This document shows, in pieces, positions 1,350-18,536 of a stretch of 20,840 nucleotides of DNA. Both the position numbers and the translations under genes were made by a program. This DNA comes from a virus, in the IMG/VR virus record IMGVR_UViG_3300006128_000077, positions 1 through 20,840 of that record. One strand, given 5' to 3'. The notes beneath the pieces are model-generated. The model ran no database searches and was not told where the DNA came from. It saw only the letters and a list, made by a program, of their open reading frames with translations. Within the stretch, counting starts at the first letter, position 1. Each line of letters starts with the position of its first letter.

Positions 1350-1384
1350 GTTTGCATTATACATGATTAAGAATCAACGGTCAA

Positions 1385-1744: not shown

Positions 1745-1747
1745 CGG

Positions 1748-2506: not shown

Positions 2507-2511
2507 ACAAT

Positions 2512-2525: not shown

Positions 2526-2530
2526 GGAGT

Positions 2531-5193: not shown

Positions 5194-5621
5194 AAAAGCA
5201 GATTACCTGCGCGGGCGGTCTGTTTCTTTCTCGATCCACTAAACGTTTCTTATTCTTGTTGCGAACACAGGGCCGCACAGCAGGCACTTGGGGAATAGCA
5301 GGCGGTAAAAAAGAACCCTGCGATACCACTCCCTACGATACATTGCTACGAGAAATTCAAGAAGAACTAGGTGTAAGACCCGCAATAGAAAAGACCATTC
5401 CCATAGAACTATACAGTTCCAACGATGAACTATTCTATTACAACACTTATATATTAATCACACCTGACGAATTCATTCCTTTACTAAATGAGGAACATGC
5501 AGGCTATGCTTGGGTCAGCCTTGATGCTTGGCCAAAACCCCTACATCAAGGTGTTAAGACAACATTGCAGAATCGTACTACTCGGACAAAGATCGAAACT
5601 ATCTTACAAATTATAAGTTAG
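5136..5621 (+). CDS. Nudix hydrolase
   Basis: The protein would hydrolyse nucleoside diphosphate-linked substrates; the substrate is not readable from sequence. The box reads WGIAGGKKEPC, then LLREIQEELG, matching GGK-x-E then RE-x-x-EE-x-G. The REIQEELG metal-binding part is intact. The first half has one extra residue, and D stands where the consensus has E. A core strand ITCAGGLFL and a C-terminal HAGYAWVSLD segment also fit the fold. The start is uncertain: ATG 5136, GTG 5121 or GTG 5175 are in frame. The last leaves a 19-base overlap with gp15 and would still keep the whole domain. T4 has nudE, but gene position and sequence do not prove orthology. Its 3' end overlaps the convergent gene at 5611 by 11 bases. 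Confidence 0.8.
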   Translation: MDEKLRRSLRSDTVETGAIKKQITCAGGLFLSRSTKRFLFLLRTQGRTAGTWGIAGGKKEPCDTTPYDTLLREIQEELGVRPAIEKTIPIELYSSNDELFYYNTYILITPDEFIPLLNEEHAGYAWVSLDAWPKPLHQGVKTTLQNRTTRTKIETILQIIS

Positions 5622-6885
5622 GTTCTTCGCCTTCTGGCTCGCCTTGGGCTGCGGCTTCCGGGTTATTTCTTAATTCCCAAGCTTCTTTATTTCTCTTAGC
5701 AATACGCAGTTTCGGCATTATGTAAATATCCGGATCATTTGGTTTGCGTAACTCGTAGCCTTCTTGGGTAATACCTACAAATTCAACTCGCGGAGTTGCT
5801 CGAGGATTTGTCATAACAAGCATATCACCAGGTTGGAAATGTTCTTCGAACCAAGCAATAGTTGCTTGATCTTCTTCTGACATAGGAGCAGGGCGTTTTT
5901 TATCAGTCCAAAATTCCGCTAGTTTCGACTTAAGATCTTGAATTGCTTTAGTGACATCGTAGGTTAGAATTGGGTTTTTCGGATCCTCACTAGGAGTTTC
6001 TATTGCTGCTCGGTTAGCTTCCATACCTTTAATTAGATCGTCTAACAAATAAGGAAACCGTTCTTTAATGGTAATAGGCTTGCATTGATGATCTAGATAG
6101 TCTTTAAAACTATGCGACGGAGCATCGAATTGGAATTTTTCAGGAACCATTCCTGCGTTTGGATCAACACGAAACATTCCTGCAGGACCTTTAACCATCG
6201 AACCTTTTGGAATTAATCCAAAAATTGGACCTCTAGAAGAATAACTTTTCCAGTTAGCATCACTTTGAGAATTTGCAGTGCAGAATGTTGCACCTTTTCC
6301 GTGAATGATTGCTGCTGCTCTGTTTTGTAATAGATAAATTTTATATTCTGGTTCGTCTGCAATCAATACTGAACGAGGATTTTTAATAAGAGCAGATTTA
6401 GCGAGAGTGTCACGAAGGTCTGCAAGAGCACCGTGATAATGAGTAACTAGATAGCGGTGTAATGCTTTAACACCTTTAAATTTTTGAATGTCTGCATGAC
6501 GCTCATCTAAGAGATTGCGATTACGAAGAGCTATGTAGTCGGCTAACGTATCTTGCAACTCTCCTTCGATGTCTTCCCAAACATCGGCACCACTGGAGTA
6601 GTTAAGAGCAATCCACATGTTTAGCTTACCGTCTCGGCTGTAGCTAACTCCGTTTGCACCTTCTTGCTCCATACGATCTAATTCATTTAAGAACCATTCG
6701 GCTACTTCGTTGTCCTGCATCTTTTGAAATTTTTTAGATAATTGATGCGGAACAGTGTGATCGTATCTTAATTGGTCAGCAATCCCAGAAACTAGGTTAA
6801 TATTACGCAGAATATTTTGAGAACCTTTGGTAAGATTTTCAAGTAGAACAAGTTTAGACTCGACTATTAGTTCTCGAATACGCAT
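5611..6885 (-). CDS. Large protein with capsid-targeting-like start and GKGATFCTA motif
   Basis: The function of this 424-residue protein is unknown. It starts MRIRELIVESKLVLLE, again of the MKIREL type with IVE before serine, which fits an L/I-x-E prohead protease site. At about residues 196-215 a GKGATFCTA motif is followed by NWKSYSSRGPIFGLIPKG. The G-K-G-T-x-(W/F)-C-T-A ... Y ... G-x-x-(F/Y) pattern recurs in uncharacterised proteins of T4-like phages as I recall them. The C-terminus is proline- and glutamate-rich and looks disordered. It begins three bases after the stop of the 695-residue gene, so the pair is one operon. If the N-terminus is truly cleaved, the protein is packaged in the head and may enter the host with the DNA. 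Confidence 0.75.
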   Translation of the reverse strand: MRIRELIVESKLVLLENLTKGSQNILRNINLVSGIADQLRYDHTVPHQLSKKFQKMQDNEVAEWFLNELDRMEQEGANGVSYSRDGKLNMWIALNYSSGADVWEDIEGELQDTLADYIALRNRNLLDERHADIQKFKGVKALHRYLVTHYHGALADLRDTLAKSALIKNPRSVLIADEPEYKIYLLQNRAAAIIHGKGATFCTANSQSDANWKSYSSRGPIFGLIPKGSMVKGPAGMFRVDPNAGMVPEKFQFDAPSHSFKDYLDHQCKPITIKERFPYLLDDLIKGMEANRAAIETPSEDPKNPILTYDVTKAIQDLKSKLAEFWTDKKRPAPMSEEDQATIAWFEEHFQPGDMLVMTNPRATPRVEFVGITQEGYELRKPNDPDIYIMPKLRIAKRNKEAWELRNNPEAAAQGEPEGEEPNL

Positions 6886-6888
6886 TGA

Positions 6889-8976
6889 TTAATATCTCGG
6901 TAGTTCGTAAATTTTAAATAGTTTATTTCGCATTACACTCAATAAATCACTTAATTCTGCTGCTTTACCGCTGGTAATAGCAATTAAGAAATCGTTCTTT
7001 TCTTGAGGGCTCATAGCATTTGTGACTTCAGTAACGCTGGCTGCTACTAAGCGACCATAATCACGCATTGGTGAGTTATTTCCGCCGCCGGTCCAATCTG
7101 GATTTTCTGTATCCAATGCAGTCGAAAGTAATTGTAGTCTCTGACCTGACTGTGTCAATTTCTGTGCTTGATCATAGTTTCCGGCCTGCGACAGTCTTGC
7201 AATTTGTGGACCAATACGGCCCAATGTCTGTTGTACCATACGACCAAAAATTGGTTGTAGTTTAGTCATTACTGTGTTAACATCTACAGTCTTAGTAGTG
7301 TCTTTATCGCGTTCTGCACGAGCAGCCATCTTTTCGCGTGGTACAGCATCTTGTGCATAAACAATCTTACTTGGATAACCGATTACTTCGGCGAGTCTAT
7401 CAAAGATATTGTTTGGATTACGATCGGCATCTGAACGAGTAGGAAGACCGCCGCGACCTCTATGAAGCATTGGATATTCATCGTCTTTGTCATCATCTTT
7501 GGGCGGAGCAGCAATTAACTGGTTAGGAACAGCTCCCTTGGCAGTAAACACTTTGACCTGATACTTTAGTGTATTATCGCGGGCTGGATTATAGATCTGA
7601 CCTTTGGCTCTTGCTTTAGCAGCCTGAGCAGCAATCTGTTGTTCGCTGGGTTTGACGGCGGCAACACCAGTTTCTCCTATGACAACAATAAACTTATCTG
7701 GGTGATCTTTAAACTGTGTCCAAGCAACATCTTTGCCATTACCGCGGAACGGAACTGAACCCCATTGTGCATCTGCGTCTAAGCGCCATAGTTCTTTATT
7801 TCTATGCAACATCTGATATAGTTGCTTTCCACCCGGTGCAGCACCTAAAATCTTTTCCAACGAAGAGTAAGGCTTTTCTTCAGTTGACTTCCATCCCATA
7901 CGCTTTGTTTCGGGATCACGAACTTTACGAATGTTAGCTTCGTCAATTTCGATACCCAACGATTCAAAAATCTCGTTGTTGAGCTGTTCGTCTGTGGGTG
8001 CTTCGAGTTCTGCTAGTCTGTCTGCTAGACCGCGAATCGATTCGCTAATGGAAATTTTGTTTTTCATAGATTTAGTTTCTCTAATTCTCTTAATTGGTGC
8101 CCCGTAGTCGTCATATTCAATTTCATTGCTGCCATGCCCGATGGATCGAGTCGGCTCTAGTGAAACTGCATCCTTCTCGGGGTATGCATAGATGTATTTA
8201 CCAAAATCGTCCATGACTACATGAAACCGAGTATCCTCTGTGCGATATTCTCGCACACGGGGCGCATACCCTGGCATAATGCGACTATAGTCAATGTGAA
8301 CATCTCCCATGTCTTGACCATTGTTCTTTAACCAACCTACGACAGCATTAAGTTCTCGATCACTGTTTGGTCCCTGCGAATTCACATTGGCAATGGTAAT
8401 GATTTCTTCTAAAGGAGTGTTGGTAAACATTTTAAAGTTACCGCGTCCCATGGCACGAATAGCTCGTTGCATATAACCCGGTAGATTGGCAATAGTGTGC
8501 CAATCAGGAACAACATCAGTGTCAGCGACAATCTCTTGATTCATTACAGCAAGGTCCTGTCGAATCACTGCGGGCAATGTGTCATACTCAGGAAGTACTC
8601 TACGTGCTTCAACGGGTGTAAGTTCGTCTGCTACATCCATGTGCCCGGCACGTCGAGCCGCTTCCGCATCGTCAATTTCATCAGATGTATCAATGTCCTG
8701 CATACGGTTAAGCATGTTACGCATATCATCTGTGGGAGTAATCCCTGCAGTTTTTGCACGAGTATCAGTGGCACTAGCACGACTTAGTTCAGGACTGCCC
8801 TTTGGCTTTTCATCTGCGCTGCTCTTTGATTTCTCTGTGGAGGGATTAACAGTAGCAGGAACCGGCCCACCTGGCTGATCAATATGAATATCAAAATCAG
8901 AGGCTGCATGTGGATCAGCATATGGACGAGCTTTTTGTGGAGCATCAGTCTTTTTACGTTGAGAATCGGGCATCAT
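6889..8976 (-). CDS. 695-residue protein of unknown function, possible two-part fusion
   Basis: The first 100 residues are charged, proline- and serine-rich and probably disordered. A more ordered part follows to about residue 300, with a Y-T-N-T-P-L-E-E-I-I-like helix and an F-H-V-V-M-DDFGKYIYAYP segment. At residue 304 the sequence MKNKISISESIRGLADRLAE begins. This looks like a fresh protein start of the targeting-sequence type seen in the two other MKIREL proteins, and CTAAATCT lies upstream of its ATG at 8067. It may be a fusion of two ancestral genes or contain an internal start. The remainder has a W-G-S-VPFRGNGKDVAWTQF segment (about 400) and a Q-rich helical region near 600. AAGGAA precedes the ATG at 8976 and CTAAATA lies at 8999-9005. 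Confidence 0.75.
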   Translation of the reverse strand: MMPDSQRKKTDAPQKARPYADPHAASDFDIHIDQPGGPVPATVNPSTEKSKSSADEKPKGSPELSRASATDTRAKTAGITPTDDMRNMLNRMQDIDTSDEIDDAEAARRAGHMDVADELTPVEARRVLPEYDTLPAVIRQDLAVMNQEIVADTDVVPDWHTIANLPGYMQRAIRAMGRGNFKMFTNTPLEEIITIANVNSQGPNSDRELNAVVGWLKNNGQDMGDVHIDYSRIMPGYAPRVREYRTEDTRFHVVMDDFGKYIYAYPEKDAVSLEPTRSIGHGSNEIEYDDYGAPIKRIRETKSMKNKISISESIRGLADRLAELEAPTDEQLNNEIFESLGIEIDEANIRKVRDPETKRMGWKSTEEKPYSSLEKILGAAPGGKQLYQMLHRNKELWRLDADAQWGSVPFRGNGKDVAWTQFKDHPDKFIVVIGETGVAAVKPSEQQIAAQAAKARAKGQIYNPARDNTLKYQVKVFTAKGAVPNQLIAAPPKDDDKDDEYPMLHRGRGGLPTRSDADRNPNNIFDRLAEVIGYPSKIVYAQDAVPREKMAARAERDKDTTKTVDVNTVMTKLQPIFGRMVQQTLGRIGPQIARLSQAGNYDQAQKLTQSGQRLQLLSTALDTENPDWTGGGNNSPMRDYGRLVAASVTEVTNAMSPQEKNDFLIAITSGKAAELSDLLSVMRNKLFKIYELPRY

Positions 8977-8998
8977 AGTTCCTTGCTGGTTAGTGTTT

Positions 8999-9005
8999 TA
9001 TTTAG
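8999..9005 (-). promoter_or_regulatory. Possible late promoter (CTAAATA)
   Basis: CTAAATA reads toward the 695-residue gene, about 22 bases before its ATG, with AAGGAA between. This spacing is like that of the sheath gene copy at 338-344. Confidence 0.5.
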
Positions 9006-9101
9006 CTGATCAGGGTAAGAGGCCAGAGAGCGCGAAGCGCCTGCGCAGCAGAAAACGGTAAAACAGATTTTACCCCTATTAACCAAGCATATAATAAACA
9101 C

Positions 9102-9130
9102 TTGACACATACTGCCCCCCATGCTATATT
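9102..9130 (+). promoter_or_regulatory. Sigma70-like promoter, leaderless
   Basis: TTGACA (9102-9107) and TATATT (9125-9130) are separated by exactly 17 bases. The ATG of the first gene begins at 9137, about where transcription should start, so the first message is predicted to have no leader and no ribosome binding site. Confidence 0.8.
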
Positions 9131-9136
9131 AACAGC

Positions 9137-9418
9137 ATGAACAAAGATTATACACCTTTCGCCTACGCGGGTACCCTTTATAACCAAGAAGCCCGCGAGA
9201 CCTCAACTGTTCTTGGACACTGCTGGGCACGAAGTCGTGCGGAAGCAGAGGGACTAGCACGAGAAAGTCTAAAAAAACAATGGCCCGAAAGCGAACTTAG
9301 TTCCACACTGATGATCAGAGAAATCGAAGGCGCCGTCTACAAAGACACAGTCACTGACGCTCAACCCGAAAGCGAGCTACACTGGCTTGATCGCAACATT
9401 ACCATGAGGACACTCTAA
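9137..9418 (+). CDS. Small protein, first gene of plus-strand cluster
   Basis: I do not recognise this 93-residue protein. It begins MNKDYTPFAYAGTLY and has a central segment W-A-R-S-R-A-E-A-EGLARESL that reads like the helix of many small phage proteins that modify or bind host targets. The rest is acidic and Q/E-rich, with no membrane segment. The ATG is only seven bases past the -10 box, so translation is probably leaderless unless a start farther upstream in the genome is used. The TAA overlaps the next ATG (TAATG), so the four genes from 9137 to 10109 form one operon. It is the only plus-strand gene block in the small-gene half of the window. Confidence 0.75.
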   Translation: MNKDYTPFAYAGTLYNQEARETSTVLGHCWARSRAEAEGLARESLKKQWPESELSSTLMIREIEGAVYKDTVTDAQPESELHWLDRNITMRTL

Positions 9419-9639
9419 TGAGCAAAATAGAATGCTACGCTTGCAAAATGCCCGTGGAAATCAATGCCTCCCGTTGCCCTCACTGTACAAGTGAACTAGG
9501 TTGGGCCGCTGGTGATCCCACAGTAAGCCTAGATGATCAAACAGTGGGTTGTATGATCGCCTTTGTGATCTTTGCCATTCCCGTTTACTTTATACTACAC
9601 TGGTTATGCCTATTTCTAATTTGGCTTGGCTTGGACTAG
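9418..9639 (+). CDS. Zinc-ribbon membrane protein
   Basis: The 73-residue protein has a CYAC ... CPHC pair at residues 6-9 and about 20-23, a likely single zinc ribbon. After a short polar linker comes a hydrophobic C-terminal span (CMIAFVIFAIPVYFILHWLCL, about residues 45-65). A zinc-ribbon head with one or two membrane passes at the C-terminus suggests a small inner-membrane protein with a cytoplasmic N-terminus. The start overlaps the previous stop (TAATG). I cannot assign a role. Confidence 0.75.
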   Translation: MSKIECYACKMPVEINASRCPHCTSELGWAAGDPTVSLDDQTVGCMIAFVIFAIPVYFILHWLCLFLIWLGLD

Positions 9640-9657
9640 TATACACTAAATTAGTAT

Positions 9658-9873
9658 GTGAACATTAGATTACCTAGAGTACGAACATATCCCGGTGGTA
9701 TGCGTGTAGTGGAAATGAGTTATCACTACAAGATTGACTTGTGGGCACAAACCTACAATACCACAGCAACTAGCTATATAGATCCCTATGACTCAGATTA
9801 CTTTATAGTAGAGTTTCCCACTGATAAGATTGCAACATTGTTTGCACTCACTTACAATCACAGCTTTGACTAA
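9658..9873 (+). CDS. Small hypothetical protein, paralogue-like to its neighbour
   Basis: This is a 71-residue protein if read from the GTG at 9658; ATG at 9700 or 9718 would be shorter. None has a clear ribosome binding site, so the start is uncertain. The C-terminal half (DYFIVEFPTDKIATLFALTY) resembles the C-terminal half of the next protein (a W-DVTFRLYFHSEQDLTLFVLGF segment): a beta strand, then a short charged turn, then a T-L-F-x-L helix. It overlaps the next gene as TAATG. Function unknown. Confidence 0.6.
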   Translation: MNIRLPRVRTYPGGMRVVEMSYHYKIDLWAQTYNTTATSYIDPYDSDYFIVEFPTDKIATLFALTYNHSFD

Positions 9874-10109
9874 TGCACTTAGAGTTCCACGCTACTAGTT
9901 CACCGTTTTCCAGCAGAAGTCCGTATCTGACCAAAGATGTGCGAACAGCTATAGAAACATGGTGTGATCAACGTGAGCTCTACTATGACTTATATGAGCA
10001 TCGTACAAGTACATGGGACGTGACTTTCAGACTATATTTTCACAGTGAGCAAGATCTAACACTGTTTGTGTTGGGTTTTGGCAGATACCGTTTTCGTGTA
10101 GTGAAGTGA
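9873..10109 (+). CDS. Small hypothetical protein, last gene of plus-strand cluster
   Basis: The protein has 78 residues with no recognised domain. Its C-terminal strand-turn-helix (VTFRLYFHSEQDLTLFVLGF) echoes the preceding gene, so the two may be an old tandem duplication. The start overlaps the previous TAA. After the TGA, a short inverted repeat with GAGC and GCTC arms follows at about 10108-10118, but without a T run, so it is not a convincing terminator. Confidence 0.65.
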   Translation: MHLEFHATSSPFSSRSPYLTKDVRTAIETWCDQRELYYDLYEHRTSTWDVTFRLYFHSEQDLTLFVLGFGRYRFRVVK

Positions 10110-10562
10110 GCTTCGCTCAGCCGGCGACGATTGCGACGAGGCCGCACTGCGCTCGCTCATCGCGCACTAGCCGACATATATAAGCGAGAAAAAATTAGCG
10201 CGCAAAATTTTTACCACTGTGAATCTATTCTAGTCCAGAGTTTTTAAGGGCGGTCTATAGTGTGTGTAAAAAAATTGCCGCGCAAAAATATAGAGATCCG
10301 GAGAACCGTACCCCTGGTGAAATACATCTAACTGGGGTGGGTTTTTAGGGGTTTGAGAGAAGAGAATTAGACAAGCTAGCAGCTAGCGCAGCAGTGTGCA
10401 AGCAAAAAAGCACCTCCGACCCCACCACCTCGGCCTCTGATCCCTACCTCTGCCTGTGGGGCATCACCCTCCCCACTACACGTTCTCTTCCTGCTCAAAA
10501 TACGCAGTGTGGCAGCTCACACTACAGGCTCTCTACCAACTCCTACTACGCAGTGTGAGATC
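10110..10562. other. Gene-free stretch with two A-tract/GCGCG repeats and palindromes
   Basis: No convincing gene is visible in these 450 bases. They hold two copies of an A-tract followed by GC-rich bases and another A-tract: AAAAAATTAGCGCGCAAAA (10189-10207) and a near copy with GCCGCGC at 10268-10287. There are three G runs near 10335 and a GCTAGCAGCTAGC repeat near 10376. Two inverted repeats follow, each bordered by ACGCAGTGTG. The second is the perfect 16-base palindrome GTGTGAGATCTCACAC (10554-10569), which overlaps the end of the next gene. An origin, an early promoter region or a termination zone are all possible; nothing decides between them. Confidence 0.5.
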
Positions 10563-10751
10563 TCACACGCTAGTATCGTAGCCTGCGTGATGCGCAGTGT
10601 GTGACTGTGCTTGCAGCACACAGCGCACTCCCCATGCAAACATCACAACGCCCACGACATTGACAGTGAGATCCAGCCAGCTCACAGTAACAGCAGTAGG
10701 ATCTTCGCTGCCTGCAAGCATGATACCCAACAGCATGATCAAGTAATACAT
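10563..10751 (-). CDS. Small membrane protein
   Basis: This 62-residue protein has two hydrophobic spans, YYLIMLLGIMLAG at the start and VNVVGVVMFAWGVRCVL near residue 30, suggesting a two-pass inner-membrane protein. TAGGA is seven bases before the ATG. It lies 48 bases after the stop of the gene at 10800-11063 and would share its promoter. Opposite-strand frames in this GT/CA-rich region are open too, so its reality is less certain than that of its neighbour. Confidence 0.5.
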   Translation of the reverse strand: MYYLIMLLGIMLAGSEDPTAVTVSWLDLTVNVVGVVMFAWGVRCVLQAQSHTAHHAGYDTSV

Positions 10752-10799
10752 TGTCTGTGTCCTAGTGTGCGTTGCTATGCAGTGTATGTAGCATACTAA

Positions 10800-11063
10800 C
10801 TAAGCTGCTGCAAACTCTTTTTTGATCGCAGCAATGTCGTAGCCCGCACGTTCAATGTGCTGGATCATAGCAAACAGCGTCTGGCGAATGTAACGCTCTG
10901 CTTCTTCTTCGTCCTCAGGCACATCGATGTGCGACCAACTGCGATCAGGATCGATGCTGTTCATGGCATGGTGCAGGTCTTGGCCCGCACTGTCCAGTGC
11001 CATCAGTTTGGCTTCTTGTGGATTGGTGCTGGTCTCACCGTAGCTGTAGTCTGGACTATACAT
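10800..11063 (-). CDS. Small acidic protein
   Basis: The 87-residue protein is not recognised. It is acidic (a V-P-EDEEEAERYI segment near residue 50) and predicted helical, with a C-terminal YDIAAIKKEFAAA helix and no membrane span. AAAAAGG lies ten bases before the ATG. The promoter TTGCAC, 17 bases, TATACA lies at 11090-11118. The leader is 26 bases. It is probably cytoplasmic and early expressed. Confidence 0.75.
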   Translation of the reverse strand: MYSPDYSYGETSTNPQEAKLMALDSAGQDLHHAMNSIDPDRSWSHIDVPEDEEEAERYIRQTLFAMIQHIERAGYDIAAIKKEFAAA

Positions 11064-11089
11064 AGCGATACCTTTTTGTTGTTAACGTG

Positions 11090-11118
11090 TGTATAGCGTG
11101 TCTGTGTTGGTAGTGCAA
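11090..11118 (-). promoter_or_regulatory. Sigma70-like promoter
   Basis: TTGCAC (11113-11118), 17-base spacer and TATACA (11090-11095) on the minus strand. An exact 52-base repeat lies just upstream (11125-11176), as it does at the promoter at 11537-11565. Confidence 0.7.
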
Positions 11119-11124
11119 GAGTTA

Positions 11125-11176
11125 TTTTTGTGCCACACACTTTTTTTCTACATGCACTACTGCGTGTGCTTGGGGC
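11125..11176 (-). repeat. 52-base exact direct repeat, copy 1
   Basis: The 52 bases are identical to 11572-11623. In the direction of transcription the repeat ends about seven bases before the -35 box, and its other end (toward CCCC) leads into a hairpin region. It contains a seven-base A run and a GTGTGTGG stretch and looks like a promoter-upstream control block. Confidence 0.9.
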
Positions 11177-11295
11177 GTCAGTGTCCCAGTGCTGTGTGCT
11201 TGTAAGCTCTGCAGAATAAAACAGTGTTGTGGGAGCTCATCCTCCCCACACACAGTAAGAGGTAGACTGTGTGTGCTGGTGTGAGCACACGCTGT

Positions 11296-11325
11296 AAAAA
11301 CAAGCGCACTATTGCTAGTGCGCTT
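11296..11325 (-). terminator. Intrinsic terminator
   Basis: The arms AAGCGCACTA and TAGTGCGCTT enclose a four-base loop (TTGC on the plus strand) and are followed on the minus strand by GTTTTT. It ends the unit that starts at the promoter 11537-11565. Confidence 0.8.
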
Positions 11326-11333
11326 GCCCTGTG

Positions 11334-11532
11334 CTACTTAAACAGCTTTGCAGCGTTTGCGCTAACAAGCGTGTATTTTGCAGTCCAGTTTTTGTTGTTG
11401 CAGTGCGTAAAGCATTCCCTCACGTGCTGCTTGTTTTTGCGTGCTTGTGCTTTGAGAGCACTAACAGCAGCTTGCAGTGCTGTGTAGCTGTGTGCGCGCA
11501 GTGTTGTGTGCGTTAGCGCGTAGTTGCTGCAT
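11334..11532 (-). pseudogene. Broken or frameshifted small gene between promoter and terminator
   Basis: A good promoter (11537-11565) and terminator (11296-11325) bracket this stretch, but no single frame is clean. The ATG at 11532, four bases after the -10 box, opens a frame (MQQLRANAHNTARTQ) that stops at TAG after 23 codons. A second frame without ATG is open from the same area to a TAG at 11334 and gives a plausible coding string (ALQAAVSALKAQARKN, later NWTAKYTLVSANAAKLFK). A single indel would join the two. It could be a decayed gene, a sequencing error or an RNA gene. The reading frame ending 9 bases before the terminator favours decay. Confidence 0.35.
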
Positions 11533-11536
11533 GTTT

Positions 11537-11565
11537 TGTATAGCTGTGTGCTGTGCAGTTAGCAA
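11537..11565 (-). promoter_or_regulatory. Sigma70-like promoter without an intact gene
   Basis: TTGCTA (11560-11565), 17 bases and TATACA (11537-11542) on the minus strand. It is preceded by the second copy of the 52-base repeat. It reads into the broken unit ending at the terminator at 11296. Confidence 0.65.
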
Positions 11566-11571
11566 GCAGTT

Positions 11572-11623
11572 TTTTTGTGCCACACACTTTTTTTCTACAT
11601 GCACTACTGCGTGTGCTTGGGGC
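11572..11623 (-). repeat. 52-base exact direct repeat, copy 2
   Basis: Identical to 11125-11176 and placed at the same distance from a promoter. The sequence beyond the CCCC end differs, so the conserved block stops sharply. Confidence 0.9.
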
Positions 11624-11631
11624 CCTAGCTT

Positions 11632-12103
11632 TCCCACGGGCTATTCTAAGGTTTCGTGACCTTAAGTGGGACATTGTTTTTCCCACTAGAGACCTTAGAA
11701 ACCTCTTGCGTTGTAGTGGGGAAGGTGCTAGTGTAATAATCAAAGCACACACAGTAATATTATTGCGTGTGCGCCACACTTTCTTAGCTTGTAGGGCACA
11801 TTGCTTTACACGGGGAGACAGTGTGCGTTGAATTTTTTTAGCTCCCACAGTGTGTAGATGTAGTATAGACTTTGCTCGTGGGATAGTCTAGAATGTTTCT
11901 AAGAAATTTGTAGAATAATATCTGTGTCTAAGCGTTAAGAAGATTTTGTCTAACTTTCCCACTAGAGAAAGTCAAGAACACTACTGTAGTCTCTTGGGAA
12001 GTCATTGATTTTGTTGAGGTCGTGATCTACACAAAGACCTAGGTCTAAGACAAGAATTGTCTGTCCCACAAACTAAGAGACATTCTAACAATACTCCGTG
12101 GGG
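11632..12103. repeat. Gene-free cluster of CCCAC/GTGGG hairpins
   Basis: There is no convincing gene between 11533 and 12151. Four stem-loops with CCCAC- and GTGGG-type arms occupy it: 11632-11671, with an inner TAAGGT/ACCTTA stem; 11680-11723, with AGAG/CTCT; 11956-12000, with AGAGA/TCTCT; and 12064-12103. An AGGTC/GACCT repeat lies at about 12020-12045, and a GCACAC/GTGTGC arm pair near 11740-11770. Frames open here have no ribosome binding site and look like chance. These hairpins resemble the single ones upstream of promoters farther right, so this may be a graveyard of cassette borders. Confidence 0.6.
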
Positions 12104-12113
12104 TAGTCAAGAC

Positions 12114-12151
12114 TAAAAAAATAGCGCACTATTGCTAGTGCGCTAGTTTTT
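12114..12151 (-). terminator. Intrinsic terminator, near-symmetric
   Basis: TAGCGCACTA and TAGTGCGCTA arms with a TTGC loop are flanked by a run of A on one side and T on the other, so it could work in both directions. It directly follows the stop of the gene at 12152. The stem core is the same as at 11296-11325. Confidence 0.85.
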
Positions 12152-12397
12152 CTACACAATCGTAAAGCCTTCTTCGCCTGCTTCAGCAAGCTCAATCCAC
12201 TCGTCGTAAACGTCCTGCAAGTAACCCTCGTCACCTTCCTCAAGTTCGAGGCCGTCCTCGCCAAAACTCTCCAAGTAAGTAATCCCCGTGCCGCAGACGC
12301 AAACACCTGAGACTTCGTCAATGAGCACAATGTCGCTGAGTGTGCCCTTGTCCCAGTGCTCCTTGCTTTCCTTGTTGCTTACAATGCTAATGGCCAT
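12152..12397 (-). CDS. Small acidic protein with central cysteines
   Basis: The 81-residue protein begins MAISIVSNKESKEHW, with AAGGAG eight bases before this ATG. An ATG 12 codons upstream is in frame but lies at the promoter. A short GVCVCGTG segment near residue 34 holds two cysteines. The C-terminal half is very acidic and helical (LELEEGDEGYLQDVYDEWI). Such acidic small proteins are common among early phage inhibitors of host DNA-binding proteins, but that is only a guess. The gene has its own promoter and terminator. Confidence 0.8.
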   Translation of the reverse strand: MAISIVSNKESKEHWDKGTLSDIVLIDEVSGVCVCGTGITYLESFGEDGLELEEGDEGYLQDVYDEWIELAEAGEEGFTIV

Positions 12398-12421
12398 TTG
12401 CTTTGCTCCTTTGCTGTAGTG

Positions 12422-12450
12422 TGTATACGGCAAGGAGCACGGGCTGTCAA
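12422..12450 (-). promoter_or_regulatory. Sigma70-like promoter
   Basis: TTGACA (12445-12450), 17 bases, TATACA (12422-12427). Upstream lie an AGCGGGGTC copy (12491-12499) and the palindromic TCTAGA-cga-TCTAGA-type arms near 12470-12485. Confidence 0.8.
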
Positions 12451-12507
12451 CCTGTTCCCAGTAGGAATTTCTAGATCGTCTAGACTATATAGCGGGGTCC
12501 AGTGGTG

Positions 12508-12831
12508 TCACTCAATGACCTCTGCGGTCTGTGTGTTCACAAACTTCACAGCGATGATCTCTGCTGAGGCAGTGTTGACCATTGCAAGGTCGTAGCTGCC
12601 GTAGGCGCAGGCGGCTGACTTGATCCATGACGTTGCAGCTTCCCGGGTGGCAAACTCGTGGCCGCGACTGTTGTTTGGTGAGGGCGACCAGCGATATGGC
12701 GGGCAACCTGATGCCGTAGGATCGTTGACAATCACTGCCTGGGTGACGGTGTCGTCGTGCAGCGTCGCCGGTGCGAACACGAAGTATCCTACTCGCTCAC
12801 GTGAGTAGTTGTCGTGCGCCAAGTTAATCAT
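12508..12831 (-). CDS. Hypothetical protein, third gene of a three-gene operon
   Basis: This is a 107-residue protein from the ATG at 12831, which has AAGGAT seven bases upstream. It contains an R-V-G-Y-F-V-FAPATL strand and an H-EFATREAATSWIKSAACAYG helix near residues 67-88, ending in a V-KFVNTQT strand. It looks like a compact alpha/beta cytoplasmic protein; I do not recognise the family. It overlaps the upstream membrane-protein gene by eight bases. Confidence 0.75.
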   Translation of the reverse strand: MINLAHDNYSRERVGYFVFAPATLHDDTVTQAVIVNDPTASGCPPYRWSPSPNNSRGHEFATREAATSWIKSAACAYGSYDLAMVNTASAEIIAVKFVNTQTAEVIE

Positions 12832-12967
12832 CGGTGTGATCCTTGGGCGGCGTGCCGAGGTGAAAGCCCTGTTCGTCTTCCCAACCTTCAGGTGCGGTCC
12901 AAATGAGGTATACAGTGAAAAGAGCACAGAGGACAAACACGATGCCGACGATGAGGTAGTTGTTCAT
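12824..12967 (-). CDS. 47-residue single-pass membrane protein
   Basis: MNNYLIVGIVFVLCALFTVYLIW is a typical N-terminal membrane anchor, followed by a short polar tail (APEGWEDEQGF to KDHTDD). AAGGGG precedes the ATG. The start overlaps the stop of the 38-residue gene as ATGA. The rest of the longer open frame upstream has no ribosome binding site and was discarded. Confidence 0.7.
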   Translation of the reverse strand: MNNYLIVGIVFVLCALFTVYLIWTAPEGWEDEQGFHLGTPPKDHTDD

Positions 12968-13080
12968 TTCATAGCCCCTTGAACAGCAGCGAATGCGGCC
13001 TGAGTCTTGGAGTAGTCTGCGAGATCGCCGTACTGAGTGCAGCAATCGCTGAGTCCGACATGATCCTGTTCTCGTGCCAT
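12964..13080 (-). CDS. 38-residue protein, first gene of operon
   Basis: The ATG at 13080 has a strong AAGGAG eleven bases upstream and is the first start after the promoter at 13103-13131. The product begins MAREQDHVGLSDCCTQYGD and ends in a helix AFAAVQGAMK. It has adjacent cysteines near residue 13. The stop overlaps the next ATG by four bases (ATGA), which supports translation of both. Confidence 0.7.
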   Translation of the reverse strand: MAREQDHVGLSDCCTQYGDLADYSKTQAAFAAVQGAMK

Positions 13081-13102
13081 GATGTGTGCTCCTTATGTAC
13101 AC

Positions 13103-13131
13103 GTTATACAACACCGCTAGGATCCTGTCAA
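13103..13131 (-). promoter_or_regulatory. Sigma70-like promoter
   Basis: TTGACA (13126-13131), 17 bases, TATAAC (13103-13108). The spacer holds GATCCTAG, shared with the spacer of the promoter at 14746-14774. The 70-base repeat (13145-13214) ends 13 bases upstream. Confidence 0.85.
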
Positions 13132-13144
13132 CTGATAATTACGC

Positions 13145-13214
13145 TGAGTAAAAATAAAAAGTCGTTTGCATCCCGGCGGAGATAGCCGCTATACTAGCTG
13201 CTTTTCGTGGGGCA
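13145..13214 (-). repeat. 70-base repeat with variable hairpin core, copy 1
   Basis: Thirty conserved bases (13145-13174) and twenty conserved bases (13195-13214) flank a 20-base core that differs completely from copy 2 (13861-13930) but has the same length and can fold at the same place (GCGG/CCGC, loop of six). It lies between a terminator and the -35 box of the operon at 12964-13080, with TTTTTATTTTT on the minus strand after its GGG arm. Confidence 0.9.
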
Positions 13215-13228
13215 CAGACAGAGACCAA

Positions 13229-13256
13229 AAAGCCCGACATCACTGCCGGGCTTTTC
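13229..13256 (-). terminator. Intrinsic terminator
   Basis: AAAGCCCG and CGGGCTTT arms with a ten-base loop and a T run on the minus strand. It follows the 27-residue gene at 13274-13357. Confidence 0.85.
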
Positions 13257-13273
13257 TCAGTTCCATGGATCCT

Positions 13274-13357
13274 TTAGCGCGTAACAATGCAAAAGGCAAA
13301 GGAGCACGCTAGCGATACGATCAGGATCATTTGATGTTCCGCAGGAACTGGCAACAC
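13274..13357 (-). CDS. 27-residue membrane peptide gene
   Basis: A GTG start at 13357 lies 11 bases after a perfect AAAGGAGG and opens a 27-residue peptide. It begins MLPVPAEHQ and continues as one hydrophobic helix (MILIVSLACSFAFCIV) ending TR. A promoter of the TAAAAC class (13389-13416) and a strong terminator (13229-13256) bracket it, so some product is expected here. Small single-helix phage peptides often act at the host membrane, but no role can be read. Confidence 0.6.
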   Translation of the reverse strand: MLPVPAEHQMILIVSLACSFAFCIVTR

Positions 13358-13388
13358 TGCGTTAATGTCCTCCTTTGCTTACTCGTCT

Positions 13389-13416
13389 GTTTTAGCACTA
13401 ACAGCGCAGCAGTCAA
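13389..13416 (-). promoter_or_regulatory. Promoter of the TAAAAC class
   Basis: TTGACT (13411-13416), 16 bases, TAAAAC (13389-13394), then AG and GAGTAAGCA. Two other promoters (14318-14345 and 16393-16420) share the 16-base spacer, the TAAAAC box and this start of the transcript. Confidence 0.7.
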
Positions 13417-13446
13417 GAACTATTTTAGCTCAAAAGCAGAAAAAAT

Positions 13447-13497
13447 GTCGCCCCAGCGAAGAATGCACGACGTAAACTTAGGCACCTTGGGAGCGAC
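13447..13497. terminator. Long-loop hairpin with A and T runs on either side
   Basis: GTCGCCCCA and TGGGAGCGAC arms (one bulged base) enclose about 30 bases. A run of A precedes and a run of T follows, so either strand could use it as a terminator. It sits 30 bases upstream of a -35 box, in the position taken by CCCCAC/GTGGGG hairpins elsewhere. Confidence 0.55.
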
Positions 13498-13550
13498 TTT
13501 TTCTTGAGTCAGAGCTCGGCCCTGAACTAGAACTAGCACTTTTAGACTGT

Positions 13551-13592
13551 CCCCACAACAGGTTTCTTAGGTCGTAGACCTAGTCTGTGGGG
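13551..13592. repeat. CCCCACA/TGTGGGG hairpin with TAGGTC-gta-GACCTA core
   Basis: The outer arms CCCCACA and TGTGGGG enclose the perfect inner repeat TAGGTC/GACCTA. Thirty bases (13562-13591) are identical to 14801-14830. Confidence 0.85.
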
Positions 13593-13609
13593 CAACAGAG
13601 ACCAAAAGA

Positions 13610-13792
13610 TCACCATCGATCCTCCTCGATCTCTTCGTCCGCGTGGTAGTTCGGATCCTCGAAGATGTCCAAGCGATACTTGGCGCGGACCGTGTCCTCA
13701 CAGGCATCGCAGACGCGACCGACAGGAATGCCGCGAGCATCGTGGAGCCACCACGACTCTTCACGGTGACGAGGATTGGTGCATTGTGCCAT
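13610..13792 (-). CDS. Small conserved protein with DARGIP and CDAC motifs
   Basis: The 60-residue protein begins MAQCTNPRHREESWWLHDA and continues RGIPVGRVCDACEDTVRAKYR, then an IFEDPNYHADE segment. I recall the W-L-H-DARGIP-x-x-RVCD-x-C ... YR-x-x-(I/V)F pattern from small conserved proteins of phages and proteobacteria of unknown function. Three cysteines (residue 4 and the CDAC pair) could bind a metal. AAGGAG lies eight bases before the ATG. The gene forms a single-gene cassette. Confidence 0.8.
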   Translation of the reverse strand: MAQCTNPRHREESWWLHDARGIPVGRVCDACEDTVRAKYRLDIFEDPNYHADEEIEEDRW

Positions 13793-13814
13793 TGCCGTTA
13801 CTCCTTTGCTGTTG

Positions 13815-13848
13815 CTGCTATACTAGCAGGATCGCGGGCTGCTGCAAC
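13815..13848 (-). promoter_or_regulatory. Probable promoter, weak spacing
   Basis: TTGCAG is followed on the minus strand by GATCCTGCTAGTATAGC. TAGTAT is at 16 bases and TATAGC at 19, so the exact -10 is unclear. The GATCCT element in the spacer is shared with two stronger promoters. Confidence 0.5.
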
Positions 13849-13860
13849 CGAAAACTACAG

Positions 13861-13930
13861 TGAGTAAAAATAAAAAGTCGTTTGCATCCCAGACTAGACT
13901 AGTCGCGTATTAGCTGCTTTTCGTGGGGCA
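13861..13930 (-). repeat. 70-base repeat with variable hairpin core, copy 2
   Basis: The flanks are identical to 13145-13214. The 20-base core (13891-13910) here folds as GACTA/TAGTC with a three-base loop. It precedes the promoter of the gene at 13610-13792. Confidence 0.9.
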
Positions 13931-13940
13931 TTCTAAGATC

Positions 13941-13979
13941 AAAAAGGAGCGGACAAGGTCCCAACACCCGTCCGCTCTA
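13941..13979 (-). terminator. Intrinsic terminator
   Basis: GAGCGGAC and GTCCGCTC arms with a 15-base loop and TTTTT on the minus strand, following the gene at 14002-14277. Confidence 0.8.
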
Positions 13980-14001
13980 AGGTTCGCTATGAAATTGTGA
14001 A

Positions 14002-14277
14002 TTATTGCAGCGTAGGATGTCCCGCAAAAGTCACGGGCAGTTCCATGGACTCCGTCTGATTGATCAGCTGCTCGAGTTCCCGGAACATCGCATCCTGCTC
14101 TTCGGTCAGGAACATCGTGGCATTGAGGACAACGTGATCGTCCTTGTGCTCAAACTTCGGATCCGGATCAATGCGGTCGCCGGCGATGGCTCCCTTGGTG
14201 ATCAGTTCCAATCCGAGCACAATCGCGTCAAGCTCATTGCGGCACGGAAACGACATCTTGCGTTCAATAGTGGCCAT
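14002..14277 (-). CDS. Hypothetical protein
   Basis: The 91-residue protein begins MATIERKMSFPCRNELDAI and has mixed strands and helices, with a C-terminal LTEEQDAMFRELEQLINQ helix. No known domain is recognised. AAAAGGA lies nine bases before the ATG. The gene has its own TAAAAC-class promoter with a leader of about 35 bases and its own terminator. A plus-strand frame covering the same bases lacks a start signal. Confidence 0.75.
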   Translation of the reverse strand: MATIERKMSFPCRNELDAIVLGLELITKGAIAGDRIDPDPKFEHKDDHVVLNATMFLTEEQDAMFRELEQLINQTESMELPVTFAGHPTLQ

Positions 14278-14317
14278 AGCGTATTCCTTTTATGTGTAAG
14301 CTGCTGCTTACTCCACT

Positions 14318-14345
14318 GTTTTAGCATCGCTGCTGCATAGGTCAA
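14318..14345 (-). promoter_or_regulatory. Promoter of the TAAAAC class
   Basis: TTGACC (14340-14345), 16 bases, TAAAAC (14318-14323), then AGTGGAGTAAGCA. It is preceded by a T run and the hairpin at 14361-14402. Confidence 0.7.
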
Positions 14346-14360
14346 CAGAAAAAATGCCGT

Positions 14361-14452
14361 CCCCACAAAGAATATCCTAGGATGCAAAACCTGTGACTGG
14401 GGCAGCTTCTCCCCACAGGTTAGGCGAGAAACCTAGAAAAACCTGTGTGGGG
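14361..14452. repeat. Two back-to-back CCCC/GGGG hairpins between divergent promoters
   Basis: The first hairpin (14361-14402) has CCCC/GGGG arms around CCTAGG. The second (14411-14452) has long arms, CCCCACAGGTT and AACCTGTGTGGGG. One borders the minus promoter at 14318-14345 and the other the plus promoter at 14467-14495. The inner arms GGGG and CCCC could also pair with each other across the short gap. Confidence 0.7.
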
Positions 14453-14466
14453 CAAGAAAAAACTGG

Positions 14467-14495
14467 TTGACATCCCACGCCAACTCAGCTATGCA
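14467..14495 (+). promoter_or_regulatory. Orphan plus-strand promoter, pointing at the 3' end of a minus gene
   Basis: TTGACA (14467-14472), 17 bases, TATGCA (14490-14495); a TATAAT overlaps just downstream but at poor spacing. The transcript would run antisense through the gene at 14515-14724. No plus-strand gene is supported. Confidence 0.5.
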
Positions 14496-14514
14496 TATAA
14501 TGCAACGATGCGAC

Positions 14515-14724
14515 TCACCAATCAGGAGTCATCCCGCGCCCGTAGCAGACCTCTGCCTGGAGTGCGGCAGTGGACTTGACCTCAGCGATCGCAGCTTCAA
14601 AGGTTGCACAGTCCTTGATCAAGTCTGCGAGCTCAGAGTCCTCAAAGGTCTCGTAGATGATGTCCAAGTTGTCCTCGTTGTAGTGATCTTTGACATACTT
14701 CTTGACCTGCTGAACCAAATCCAT
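14515..14724 (-). CDS. Small acidic helical protein
   Basis: From the ATG at 14724 (GGAG upstream, ATAAGGAGACAC) the protein has 69 residues: MDLVQQVKKYVKDHYNEDN, then an I-Y-E-T-F-EDSELADLI segment and an A-A-IAEVKSTAALQAE helix. No domain is recognised. The longer open frame to 14766 lacks a ribosome binding site. Single-gene cassette with its own promoter. Confidence 0.75.
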   Translation of the reverse strand: MDLVQQVKKYVKDHYNEDNLDIIYETFEDSELADLIKDCATFEAAIAEVKSTAALQAEVCYGRGMTPDW

Positions 14725-14745
14725 GTTGTGTCTCCTTATGCAGTG

Positions 14746-14774
14746 TTTGTAGCGAACTAGGATCACTGTGTCAA
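14746..14774 (-). promoter_or_regulatory. Sigma70-like promoter
   Basis: TTGACA (14769-14774), 17 bases, TACAAA (14746-14751). The spacer contains GATCCTAG. Confidence 0.75.
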
Positions 14775-14789
14775 TGACTATTTTTCTGC

Positions 14790-14831
14790 TCCCAGTATAA
14801 GTTTCTTAGGTCGTAGACCTAGTCTGTGGGA
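14790..14831. repeat. TCCC/GGGA hairpin with TAGGTC-gta-GACCTA core
   Basis: It shares 30 exact bases (14801-14830) with 13562-13591, including the whole inner palindrome and the right arm, but the left arm and its neighbours differ. Confidence 0.85.
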
Positions 14832-14842
14832 CACACTAGGAT

Positions 14843-14876
14843 AAAAAAACAAGCGAGCCATTGCTGACCCGCTTGC
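14843..14876 (-). terminator. Intrinsic terminator
   Basis: AAGCGAGC and GCTTG-side arms with an ATTGCTG loop and a seven-base T run on the minus strand. Its stem-loop is nearly identical to 15215-15247. Confidence 0.85.
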
Positions 14877-14883
14877 TTCTGTG

Positions 14884-15090
14884 TTAGTATTCAAGCTTCA
14901 CGATATTAGCAATAGCGCGCGACTCTTGCATCCCAGCACCCGCATCCTTGGCGCCGTCAAACGCGAGGACCCACACATTGTCATAGAACTCGGCGCGCCC
15001 CTCCTCGGTGTCCTCGAGCGTGTCAGCAGTAATGCAATCGCCGATGTGACGATCTACGTTCTCGCGTGCTGCTTGCATATACTTGTTCAT
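14884..15090 (-). CDS. Small hypothetical protein
   Basis: This 68-residue protein starts MNKYMQAARENVDRHIGDC. It is acidic in the middle (ADTLEDTEEGRAEFYDN) and ends in a helix with SRAIANIVKLEY. No domain is recognised. AAGGAG is eight bases before the ATG. It has its own promoter and terminator. Confidence 0.8.
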   Translation of the reverse strand: MNKYMQAARENVDRHIGDCITADTLEDTEEGRAEFYDNVWVLAFDGAKDAGAGMQESRAIANIVKLEY

Positions 15091-15117
15091 TGTAGTTGCT
15101 CCTTGCTTGCTGCACTA

Positions 15118-15146
15118 CACATAGTAGATTGGCTGCAGAGTGTCAA
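15118..15146 (-). promoter_or_regulatory. Sigma70-like promoter
   Basis: TTGACA (15141-15146), 17 bases, TATGTG (15118-15123). Confidence 0.7.
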
Positions 15147-15156
15147 GCGGAAAAGA

Positions 15157-15213
15157 TCTTGCCCCACAAAGAGTTCTACAAGTGTGTATGTACAACAGCG
15201 GGGTCCTGCAAGA
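15157..15213. repeat. TCTTG.CCCC / GGGG.CAAGA hairpin with AGCGGGGTC
   Basis: Outer TCTTG/CAAGA and inner CCCC/GGGG arms enclose about 34 bases. The right arm is part of an AGCGGGGTC copy (15197-15205). It is placed just upstream of the promoter at 15118-15146. Confidence 0.65.
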
Positions 15214-15214
15214 C

Positions 15215-15247
15215 AAAAAGCAAGCGAGCCATTGCTGACTCGCTTGC
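15215..15247 (-). terminator. Intrinsic terminator
   Basis: GCAAGCGAG and CTCGCTTGC-type arms, an ATTGCTGA loop and a T run on the minus strand, right after the gene at 15259. Confidence 0.85.
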
Positions 15248-15258
15248 AGTGTGCTTAG

Positions 15259-15675
15259 TTAGGCAGCGCCAAAGAACGCATCGATCTCTGCGTCCGTAGC
15301 GTAGCGCACACCGTCGGCCAGTTCCAGCGGGTGCAAGTTGCAGCGACCGTCGGCGACGGTCGTGCCGCCATTGGCAGTATAGACTTCGGCATCGCCGTCG
15401 TGGTCGATGTTGCGGATCAGCAGAGTCTCGCCTGCTCGCACAACCATCGTGCCCTTCTTGTAAGGACCGACTTCATTGCTCTCGGTACAGTCGATGCCCG
15501 TGATTGCAGTGACCAGCGCGCGAACACTGGAGTCCTGGCAACCCCAACGACCGGCATTGACTGCGGCGAGGATCTGCTGCTGTTCAGCCGTGAGCACCAC
15601 GTCGTCAGTGTCGGCTTCGTTGTTGCGGCGCTTGGCCGTCTTGCGCTTGATCTTTGCGATATCGAAAAATGCCAT
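15259..15675 (-). CDS. Hypothetical protein, 138 residues
   Basis: A basic N-terminus (AKIKRKTAKRRNN) is followed by a helix (LTAEQQQILAAVNAGRWG) and a beta-rich part with KKGTMVVRAGETLLIRN near residues 84-100. The small barrel-like second half after a charged tail might bind nucleic acid, but no family is recognised. AAGGAG lies seven bases before the ATG. It has its own promoter and terminator. GC content is higher than in the left half of the window. Confidence 0.8.
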   Translation of the reverse strand: MAFFDIAKIKRKTAKRRNNEADTDDVVLTAEQQQILAAVNAGRWGCQDSSVRALVTAITGIDCTESNEVGPYKKGTMVVRAGETLLIRNIDHDGDAEVYTANGGTTVADGRCNLHPLELADGVRYATDAEIDAFFGAA

Positions 15676-15701
15676 TTGCTTGCTCCTTTGCCTGCATCCT
15701 T

Positions 15702-15730
15702 GTTATAGTGTGCAGTTGTAACCTTGTCAA
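15702..15730 (-). promoter_or_regulatory. Sigma70-like promoter
   Basis: TTGACA (15725-15730), 17 bases, TATAAC (15702-15707); a near-consensus promoter. Confidence 0.85.
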
Positions 15731-15744
15731 CGACTATTTTGTCA

Positions 15745-15786
15745 CCCCACAGATTTGTCTGCAGATAACATTACAGTCCCGTGGGG
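15745..15786. repeat. CCCCAC/GTGGGG hairpin
   Basis: The arms CCCCAC and GTGGGG enclose 30 bases with a CAGA-tttg-TCTG inner repeat. It ends 15 bases before the -35 box of the promoter at 15702-15730. Confidence 0.75.
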
Positions 15787-15797
15787 CACACGAGGCC

Positions 15798-15836
15798 AAA
15801 AAAATGGAGCAAGCGCCTTGACACTTGCTCCATTTT
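15798..15836 (-). terminator. Intrinsic terminator, possibly bidirectional
   Basis: AAAATGGAGCAAG and CTTGCTCCATTTT arms with a ten-base loop. The minus strand continues in a T run. It follows the gene at 15840. Confidence 0.85.
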
Positions 15837-15839
15837 GTG

Positions 15840-16343
15840 TTAGGCTGCGATTTCGCCCGCTTCTTCAGCAGCAGCGTTCTCGGCTTCGAGCTGCGCGTCT
15901 TCGGCGTCAGCAGCAGCAGCCCAGTCTTCCATCTGCTGGGCGGCCTTGCTCTTGCGCTTGGGCTTTGCAGCAGCGGGCAGCTCGATGATCTTGTCGTCAA
16001 CTTCGGTGTTGACAACGGGCTCATCTTCTGCAACAGTCGCAGCCGGCGCTTCTTCAGCGACAGCTTCCTCGACAGCAGCAGCAGGAGCAGCAGCAGGCTT
16101 GGGCACCGGATTGCCCAGCACGGCGTGCATCGCAGCAATGATCGCCGTGTCCGTGCTGAACGCGGGCAGCGTCAGCAAGTGGTCGACCGCGTCCTGCTTG
16201 TCCATGGCGTAGGGCAGCTCGATCAAGTTGATGTCGGTGTGGCCGTTCTTGTCCAGCACCTTCACGCGAGTGATGTCGTTGGCAAAGCGCGCCTTGAACT
16301 GGCCGTTGAGCTTGCTGACACCAGCAACAGTAAACGTCTTCAT
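15840..16343 (-). CDS. MKTFTVAG-type phage protein with alanine-rich tail
   Basis: From the ATG at 16343 (GGAG nine bases upstream) the protein has 167 residues. It opens MKTFTVAGVSKLNGQFKAR and continues FANDITRVKVLDKNGHTDI and ELPYAMDKQDAV. I recall this domain from T4-like phages of aquatic bacteria, where its function is unknown. After about residue 85 it turns into an Ala/Glu/Pro-rich linker (PKPAAAPAAAVEE) and a basic PKRKSKAAQQ patch, so the tail is probably disordered. A long plus-strand frame lies opposite but has no start signal and is a shadow of the alanine codons. The leader is about 50 bases and the promoter is of the TAAAAC class. Confidence 0.85.
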   Translation of the reverse strand: MKTFTVAGVSKLNGQFKARFANDITRVKVLDKNGHTDINLIELPYAMDKQDAVDHLLTLPAFSTDTAIIAAMHAVLGNPVPKPAAAPAAAVEEAVAEEAPAATVAEDEPVVNTEVDDKIIELPAAAKPKRKSKAAQQMEDWAAAADAEDAQLEAENAAAEEAGEIAA

Positions 16344-16392
16344 ATGCTTTACTCCGTTGCGTAGTAGCAGCAACATCGCTGCCTACTCCTCT

Positions 16393-16420
16393 GTTTTAAC
16401 ATCGTGTGCTCGCCCGTCAA
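16393..16420 (-). promoter_or_regulatory. Promoter of the TAAAAC class
   Basis: TTGACG (16415-16420), 16 bases, TAAAAC (16393-16398), then AGAGGAGTAGGCA. A T run lies just upstream. Confidence 0.7.
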
Positions 16421-16469
16421 TAAAAAAATGCCGCTCAGACTAATCTTTTTTCCTGCCTCATATACTGCC

Positions 16470-16525
16470 GTGGGGCAAGCTCTCCCCACAACGCTCTAAG
16501 ACTAGTCTAAACTTTCTGCGTGGGG
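16470..16525. repeat. GTGGGG-CCCCAC-GTGGGG switch-like element
   Basis: The middle CCCCAC (16484-16489) can pair either with GTGGGG at 16470-16475 (loop of eight) or with GTGGGG at 16520-16525, around the palindrome AGACTAGTCT (16499-16508). It lies between a minus promoter (16393-16420) and a plus promoter (16540-16568). Confidence 0.65.
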
Positions 16526-17687: not shown

Positions 17688-17755
17688 CCCCACAGTATAT
17701 ACTCTAGACCTTCGCCCCACAGACTGGGAGCACGATCTCCTTCCTCCTAGTGGGG
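17688..17755. repeat. Paired CCCCACA boxes and GTGGGG between divergent promoters
   Basis: Two CCCCACA boxes (17688 and 17715) face one GTGGGG (17750-17755). Inside the second is a GGGAG-cacgat-CTCC hairpin. It stands between the minus promoter (17643-17671) and the plus promoter (17784-17812). Confidence 0.6.
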
Positions 17756-18492: not shown

Positions 18493-18536
18493 GTCCCACA
18501 CGCAACAGCACAGCGGGGTCTTAGCAGTAGTGGGAC
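18493..18536. repeat. GTCCCAC/GTGGGAC hairpin with AGCGGGGTC in the loop
   Basis: Perfect seven-base arms enclose 30 bases including AGCGGGGTC (18512-18520). Confidence 0.75.

Follow-up and report, generated by a model that had tools for sequence, protein, structure and literature searches.

Judged by architecture only, the closest known system to the locus analysed here would be the promoter early stem-loop (PeSL) cassette of T4-type phages, which was reportedly described by Arbiol and co-workers in 2010 and by Comeau and co-workers in 2014. PeSLs are reported to mediate gene shuffling in T4-like phages (PMC4503421). The stoperators of the cluster A mycobacteriophages are asymmetric single sites that are bound by a monomeric repressor (PMC9283540).

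The locus studied here lies in virus record IMGVR_UViG_3300006128_000077, whose 20,840 bases are the window of this analysis and which comes from a large uncultured freshwater phage. T4-type structural genes are found in the first 9 kb of the window (gp15-like tail sheath stabiliser, head-tail adaptor Ad2, dNMP kinase). The protein encoded at 2531-3757 has 34-36% identity to proteins of PA5oct, Atu_ph07 and Phosso, and the phage's nearest named relatives, judged by protein, are large myoviruses, these among them. Judging by its T4-type neck and tail genes, the window's phage is a T4-related large phage. Small genes with almost no matches, most of them on the minus strand, fill the window from about 9 to 20.8 kb; in the repeat region the minus strand is the coding strand.

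An earlier note on this DNA had described a 70-base repeat, present twice, in which 30 identical bases on one side and 20 on the other enclose a 20-base core that differs between the copies. We confirmed both copies, A and B (Table 1), as well as the short hairpins GCGG/CCGC and GACTA/TAGTC, each of which starts at the second base of its core. The two hairpins are unlike, with stems of 4 and 5 bp and loops of 6 and 3 nt in A and B, respectively. The sister phage IMGVR_UViG_3300025467_000022 holds both copies at the same 716-base offset, with the cores unchanged in place. The description of the cores as unrelated agrees with their ungapped identity of 6/20 but is slightly too strong, since a gapped alignment (two deletions and two insertions, net zero) pairs 13 positions (P = 0.037 against shuffled cores); the two cores may therefore go back to one origin and have diverged greatly. 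Two further ideas about the cores were abandoned: that core B is the inverted core A was rejected on inspection by eye, and an enrichment of CTAG in the cores was dropped, the frequency of CTAG across 12.1-20.8 kb being equal to expectation.

Read on the minus strand, copy A is TG-CCCCAC-N30-CCGGGA and copy B is TG-CCCCAC-N30-CTGGGA. In both, the arms CCCCAC and C(C/T)GGGA flank exactly 30 bases, and the 20-base core lies mostly within this gap, with its last two bases inside the right arm. What had appeared to be a swapped hairpin core looks like the variable spacer of two two-armed sites. A and B are two among at least 13 copies (about 15-17, within 10.4-18.6 kb) of a minus-strand element composed of YCCCAC, exactly 30 unrelated bases and STGGGR, and the copies are intergenic, among small genes. 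When spacers of 0-100 were scanned with degenerate arms, whose consensus was derived from the same copies on which it was tested, 13 arm pairs were found at a spacer of 30, 3 at 29 and 2 at 28, with a mean of 0.14 pairs at each spacer other than 30; 500 dinucleotide shuffles gave a mean of 0.01 pairs at spacer 30 and a maximum of 1. A count of exact matches, which is independent of the consensus, returned CCCCAC-N30-GTGGGG 5 times and any other inverted 6-mer pair at most twice in the window at spacings of 15-60. When all exact inverted 6-mers were tallied by spacing, 30 was not singled out; only the specific arm sequence does so. Spacers of 27-29 occur in some looser copies (one doubtful copy has 31 at best), which are found mostly in the non-coding 11.6-12.1 kb. 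Among unrelated copies, 8.2 of the 30 interior positions are identical against 7.7 expected, and as this is identity at the level of chance, the interior is free in sequence while held in length. The cores of A and B are equally long because the distance from arm to arm is fixed, and the importance that had been attached to their equal length was well placed: exactly 30 bp separate the arms at no fewer than 13 sites despite unrelated interiors. Separately, the motif GACCCCGCTRT recurs intergenically on the minus strand, often shortly past gene ends (~18834, 18512, 17327, 15205, 12499), and in two cases (15203 and 12497) it is the left arm of an element.

Table 1. Features of the repeat region, with positions in the window. 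Numerical copy names give the start of the left arm on the minus strand.
Feature	Position	Strand	Remarks
70-base repeat, copy A (element + T-rich tract ATGCAAACGACTTTTTATTTTTACTCA)	13145..13214	(-)	
70-base repeat, copy B	13861..13930	(-)	
Element of copy A, CCCCAC-N30-CCGGGA	13171..13212	(-)	identical in sister phage
Element of copy B, CCCCAC-N30-CTGGGA	13887..13928	(-)	identical in sister phage
10461, CCCCAC-N30-GTGGGG	10420..10461	(-)	weaker tandem copy at 10471-10512
Looser element, spacer 28 (27 in sister phage)	12064..12103	(-)	
12497, CCCCGC-N30-CTGGGA	12456..12497	(-)	TTGACA 5 nt downstream
13492, TCCCAA-N30-CTGGGG	13451..13492	(-)	TTGACT-N16-TAAAAC 34 nt downstream
13592, CCCCAC-N30-GTGGGG	13551..13592	(-)	30 of first 31 bases in register in 14831
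14402, CCCCAG-N30-GTGGGG	14361..14402	(-)	TTGACC 15 nt downstream
14452, CCCCAC-N30-GTGGGG	14411..14452	(-)	tandem with 14402 copy
14831, TCCCAC-N30-CTGGGA	14790..14831	(-)	TTGACA 15 nt downstream
15203, CCCCGC-N30-GTGGGG	15162..15203	(-)	TTGACA 15 nt downstream
15786, CCCCAC-N30-GTGGGG	15745..15786	(-)	TTGACA-N17-TATAAC 14 nt downstream
Degenerate element, CCCCAC-N30-TCTGAG	16434..16475	(-)	TTGACG 13 nt downstream
16525, CCCCAC-N30-GTGGGG	16484..16525	(-)	
17729, TCCCAG-N30-GTGGGG	17688..17729	(-)	TTGACA 16 nt downstream; overlaps 17755 copy
17755, 29-base spacer, CCCCAC-N29-GTGGGG	17715..17755	(-)	
18535, TCCCAC-N30-GTGGGA	18494..18535	(-)	
Promoter after A, TTGACA-N17-TATAAC (11/12)	13103..13131	(-)	39 nt past right arm
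Weak promoter-like site after B, TTGCAG-N16-TAGTAT (7/12)	13820..13847	(-)	39 nt past right arm
Terminator-like hairpin + T run directly upstream of A	13227..13255	(-)	read in sequence; identical in sister phage
Terminator-like hairpin + T run directly upstream of B	13941..13978	(-)	read in sequence

The surroundings of the element follow a usual order, namely a gene, a terminator hairpin with a T run, 6-15 bases, the element, an A/T tract and TTGACA, and then 16-17 bases, a -10 box, AAGGAG and ATG. From the right arm to the -35 box there are 13, 14, 15, 15, 15 and 16 nt in six copies; this distance is not universal, as it is 39 in A and B, 34 in 13492 and 5 in 12497. In six of the ten promoter-linked copies the centre of the element lies upstream of the expected start by about 70-72 bp, and activators that contact RNA polymerase from upstream work over a range that includes this distance. 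Most of the promoter-linked copies have predicted promoters of the host type, with 9-11 of 12 matches to the sigma-70 consensus; the site after B, upstream of the ATG at 13792, is weak. Terminators were recognised by eye ahead of A, B, 14831 and 15786, with no clear one at 13592 or 12497, and terminator-like sites lie on the minus strand at 15247-15220, 17802-17771, 14484-14466 and 12145-12122, so that a putative stem-loop terminator stands beside the promoter. Two other cassette parts recur. Four related terminator hairpins (14844-14876, 15215-15247, 11295-11327 and 12115-12147) have a common design of GCGAGCCATTGCTGACYCGC or GCGCACTATTGCTAGTGCGC with A/T runs, and a 22-base block around the -10 box and the bases that follow it (TGCTAAAACAG-GAGTAAGCA on the minus strand) is common to three promoters (13376-13397, 14305-14326, 16380-16401; 86-91% identical), making it the third reused part.

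About 1 kb at 11100-12150 is without convincing genes and holds looser arm pairs (spacers 28-29) and promoter-like sites. A repeat pair of 62 bases (11115-11176 and 11562-11623) is 94% identical. The stretch is possibly a non-coding RNA region; a long non-coding RNA is annotated in PA5oct, a distant relative.

The likeness to the PeSL cassettes lies in a predicted terminator stem-loop beside a predicted early promoter of the host type, an arrangement repeated many times between the small genes of a phage related to T4. The element is dense in the region of small variable genes, and the differing gene content at one cassette, that of A, may parallel the gene shuffling at PeSLs. The difference is the extra two-armed element with its fixed 30-bp spacer between terminator and promoter, and we know of no fixed two-armed element in PeSLs. 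In phage P1, scattered c1 operators control many promoters of one phage, and in this dispersed control they are like the array described here, but they have another sequence and are not known to have a fixed 30-bp gap between inverted arms. With the stoperators, the array has in common many short intergenic sites in one phage that are read as binding sites of one regulator. However, the element is not a short asymmetric single site but a symmetric, inverted pair with a 30-bp gap, located upstream of promoters.

Pattern scans of viral contigs, a scan of genome contigs and the other genomes that were read yielded no array of the element beyond the window's phage and its sister. Exact-pattern scans for the outer flanks matched the sister phage alone, and scans of viral and genome contigs for arms plus promoter gave scattered or single-family matches, with varied spacers or one copy per genome. 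The contig scans used exact CCCCAC/GTGGGG arms, or relaxed arms in one viral-contig scan, and because all of them required a nearby TTGACA, other variants of the element could be missed. In the first 30 kb of the T4-type phage RB49 no inverted 6-mer pair recurs at a fixed spacing, and the element is absent from large phages related through structural proteins or through the protein encoded at 16343 on the minus strand (L070-L072). In one of the latter, L071, a TAGGGCAA motif of its own is repeated downstream of promoters, without the fixed spacing of 30. In the same phage (a 330 kb contig, locus 1-16243), TATA(A/C)..ATAGGGCAAC occurs repeatedly directly past GGTTGACA promoters and is possibly a 5' leader element.

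Our preferred reading, to which we assign a probability of roughly 0.5, is that A and B are copies of a promoter-upstream two-armed element, a putative two-part protein-binding site within a reusable, shuffled cassette. Such a cassette would comprise the terminator of the upstream gene, the two-armed element, an A/T tract, a sigma-70 promoter, a ribosome site and a gene. A symmetric protein complex would grip both arms, about 36 bp apart from centre to centre, and would influence the promoter next to it; an activator or regulator is the likeliest role, given that six of the ten promoter-linked copies are centred at the upstream distance given above. The interior would be spanned and not read, and for this reason it would drift and be swapped between copies by recombination, with its length held at 30. 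More tentatively, inverted CCCCAC/GTGGGG half-sites exactly 30 bp apart may form the two-part operator of a phage-wide regulon, which would take in most promoters of the small-gene region and depend on a putative phage or host factor bridging about 36 bp. Common descent could contribute to the constant length.

The arms might instead form a hairpin in RNA or single-stranded DNA, with a 6-bp stem and a 30-nt loop, that works as an insulator, a further terminator or the end of an mRNA. In favour of this, most copies have complementary arms (86.7% of cells are paired across 15 copies), eight copies have C-G as the outer pair and two have T-A, and the elements come after terminators. However, arms dealt at random pair equally well and the pairing ends exactly at the arm edges, a pattern expected of two copies of one protein half-site, and the innermost pair is broken in 7 of the 15 copies. 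Covariation in the arm helix did not exceed that of permutations (p = 0.23), and a stem under selection is disfavoured because the compensatory change expected of it is absent. Neither a helix covarying clearly beyond controls nor a match to a known family, by which a structured RNA family would be recognised, was found, an Rfam scan having given no match and a tRNA scan none. As the loop of a hairpin also need not be exactly 30 nt long, we consider this explanation unlikely.

Comparison with the sister phage bears on the possibility that the element is a site of exchange. Over A and B together the two phages show 0/140 differences, against 18/183 and 20/324 in neighbouring genes, and 0 differences were found in the 282 bases that make up both 70-base repeats and the 13592 and 13492 elements, together with what separates the latter two. 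Since a single sister genome overlaps the region, recent exchange could be part of the reason for the region's conservation. Between the phages the 12497 element differs at no fewer than 3 positions, with a changed interior whose length is 30 in both. Directly after A, the phages have different promoters and a different next gene, and the sister phage has an extra small gene with its own promoter; this is the one clear case of changed gene content at a cassette in the one sister genome compared. Within the window, 13592 and 14831 have 30 bases in common in register and then diverge with their length kept. This block and the differing gene after A lend support to the earlier suggestion of exchange between copies, and we would read the similarities among copies as block-wise exchange between cassettes under the length rule. 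In a separate stretch, 9750-11529, the phages are 99.8% identical as opposed to about 95% in the adjoining stretches, which suggests recent exchange or strong constraint. The element itself could mainly be a border where cassettes of genes, or cores, change places through general or site-specific recombination, as would suit the in-register blocks of A/B and 13592/14831, the gene that differs after A and the shuffling of genes by PeSLs reported for T4-like phages (PMC4503421). Nevertheless, a fixed gap of 30 bp is no requirement of general homologous recombination, a recombinase was not found here, and the promoter linkage at 13-16 nt is indicative of transcription, with exchange as a possible by-product of repetition. 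A dedicated exchange site is accordingly held to be improbable, to the same degree as the hairpin.

Pure descent, in which old duplications of one promoter cassette have passed on the constant 30 without selection, is similarly doubtful. It would account for the related pairs A/B and 13592/14831 and for the weak gapped alignment of the A and B cores, but most interiors are at chance identity and yet the arms and the length are kept, and indels at such divergence should have scattered the length. The weakest explanation is the one first proposed, that every core is required to fold into a hairpin at the same position: although both cores do have a short hairpin starting at the same base, it is very improbable, as the 30-base interiors fold like shuffled ones (mean z -0.45, s.e. 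0.24; A -0.81 and B +0.24, neither unusual) and neither core hairpin covaries clearly beyond shuffled or slid controls across 15 ungapped aligned copies. The earlier note would have given up this proposal for cores that do not fold or that vary freely in length; the cores share no fold, but their length does not vary freely.

The preferred reading of A and B as copies of a two-part binding site turns a repeat curiosity into a regulatory code that can be tested, in which two short boxes keep a strict distance at many promoters of a large phage. If a protein bridges these boxes, that protein would exert common control over a group of small genes of the phage. Fixed spacing combined with a free interior would mean that phage promoter cassettes can shuffle and diverge without loss of function.
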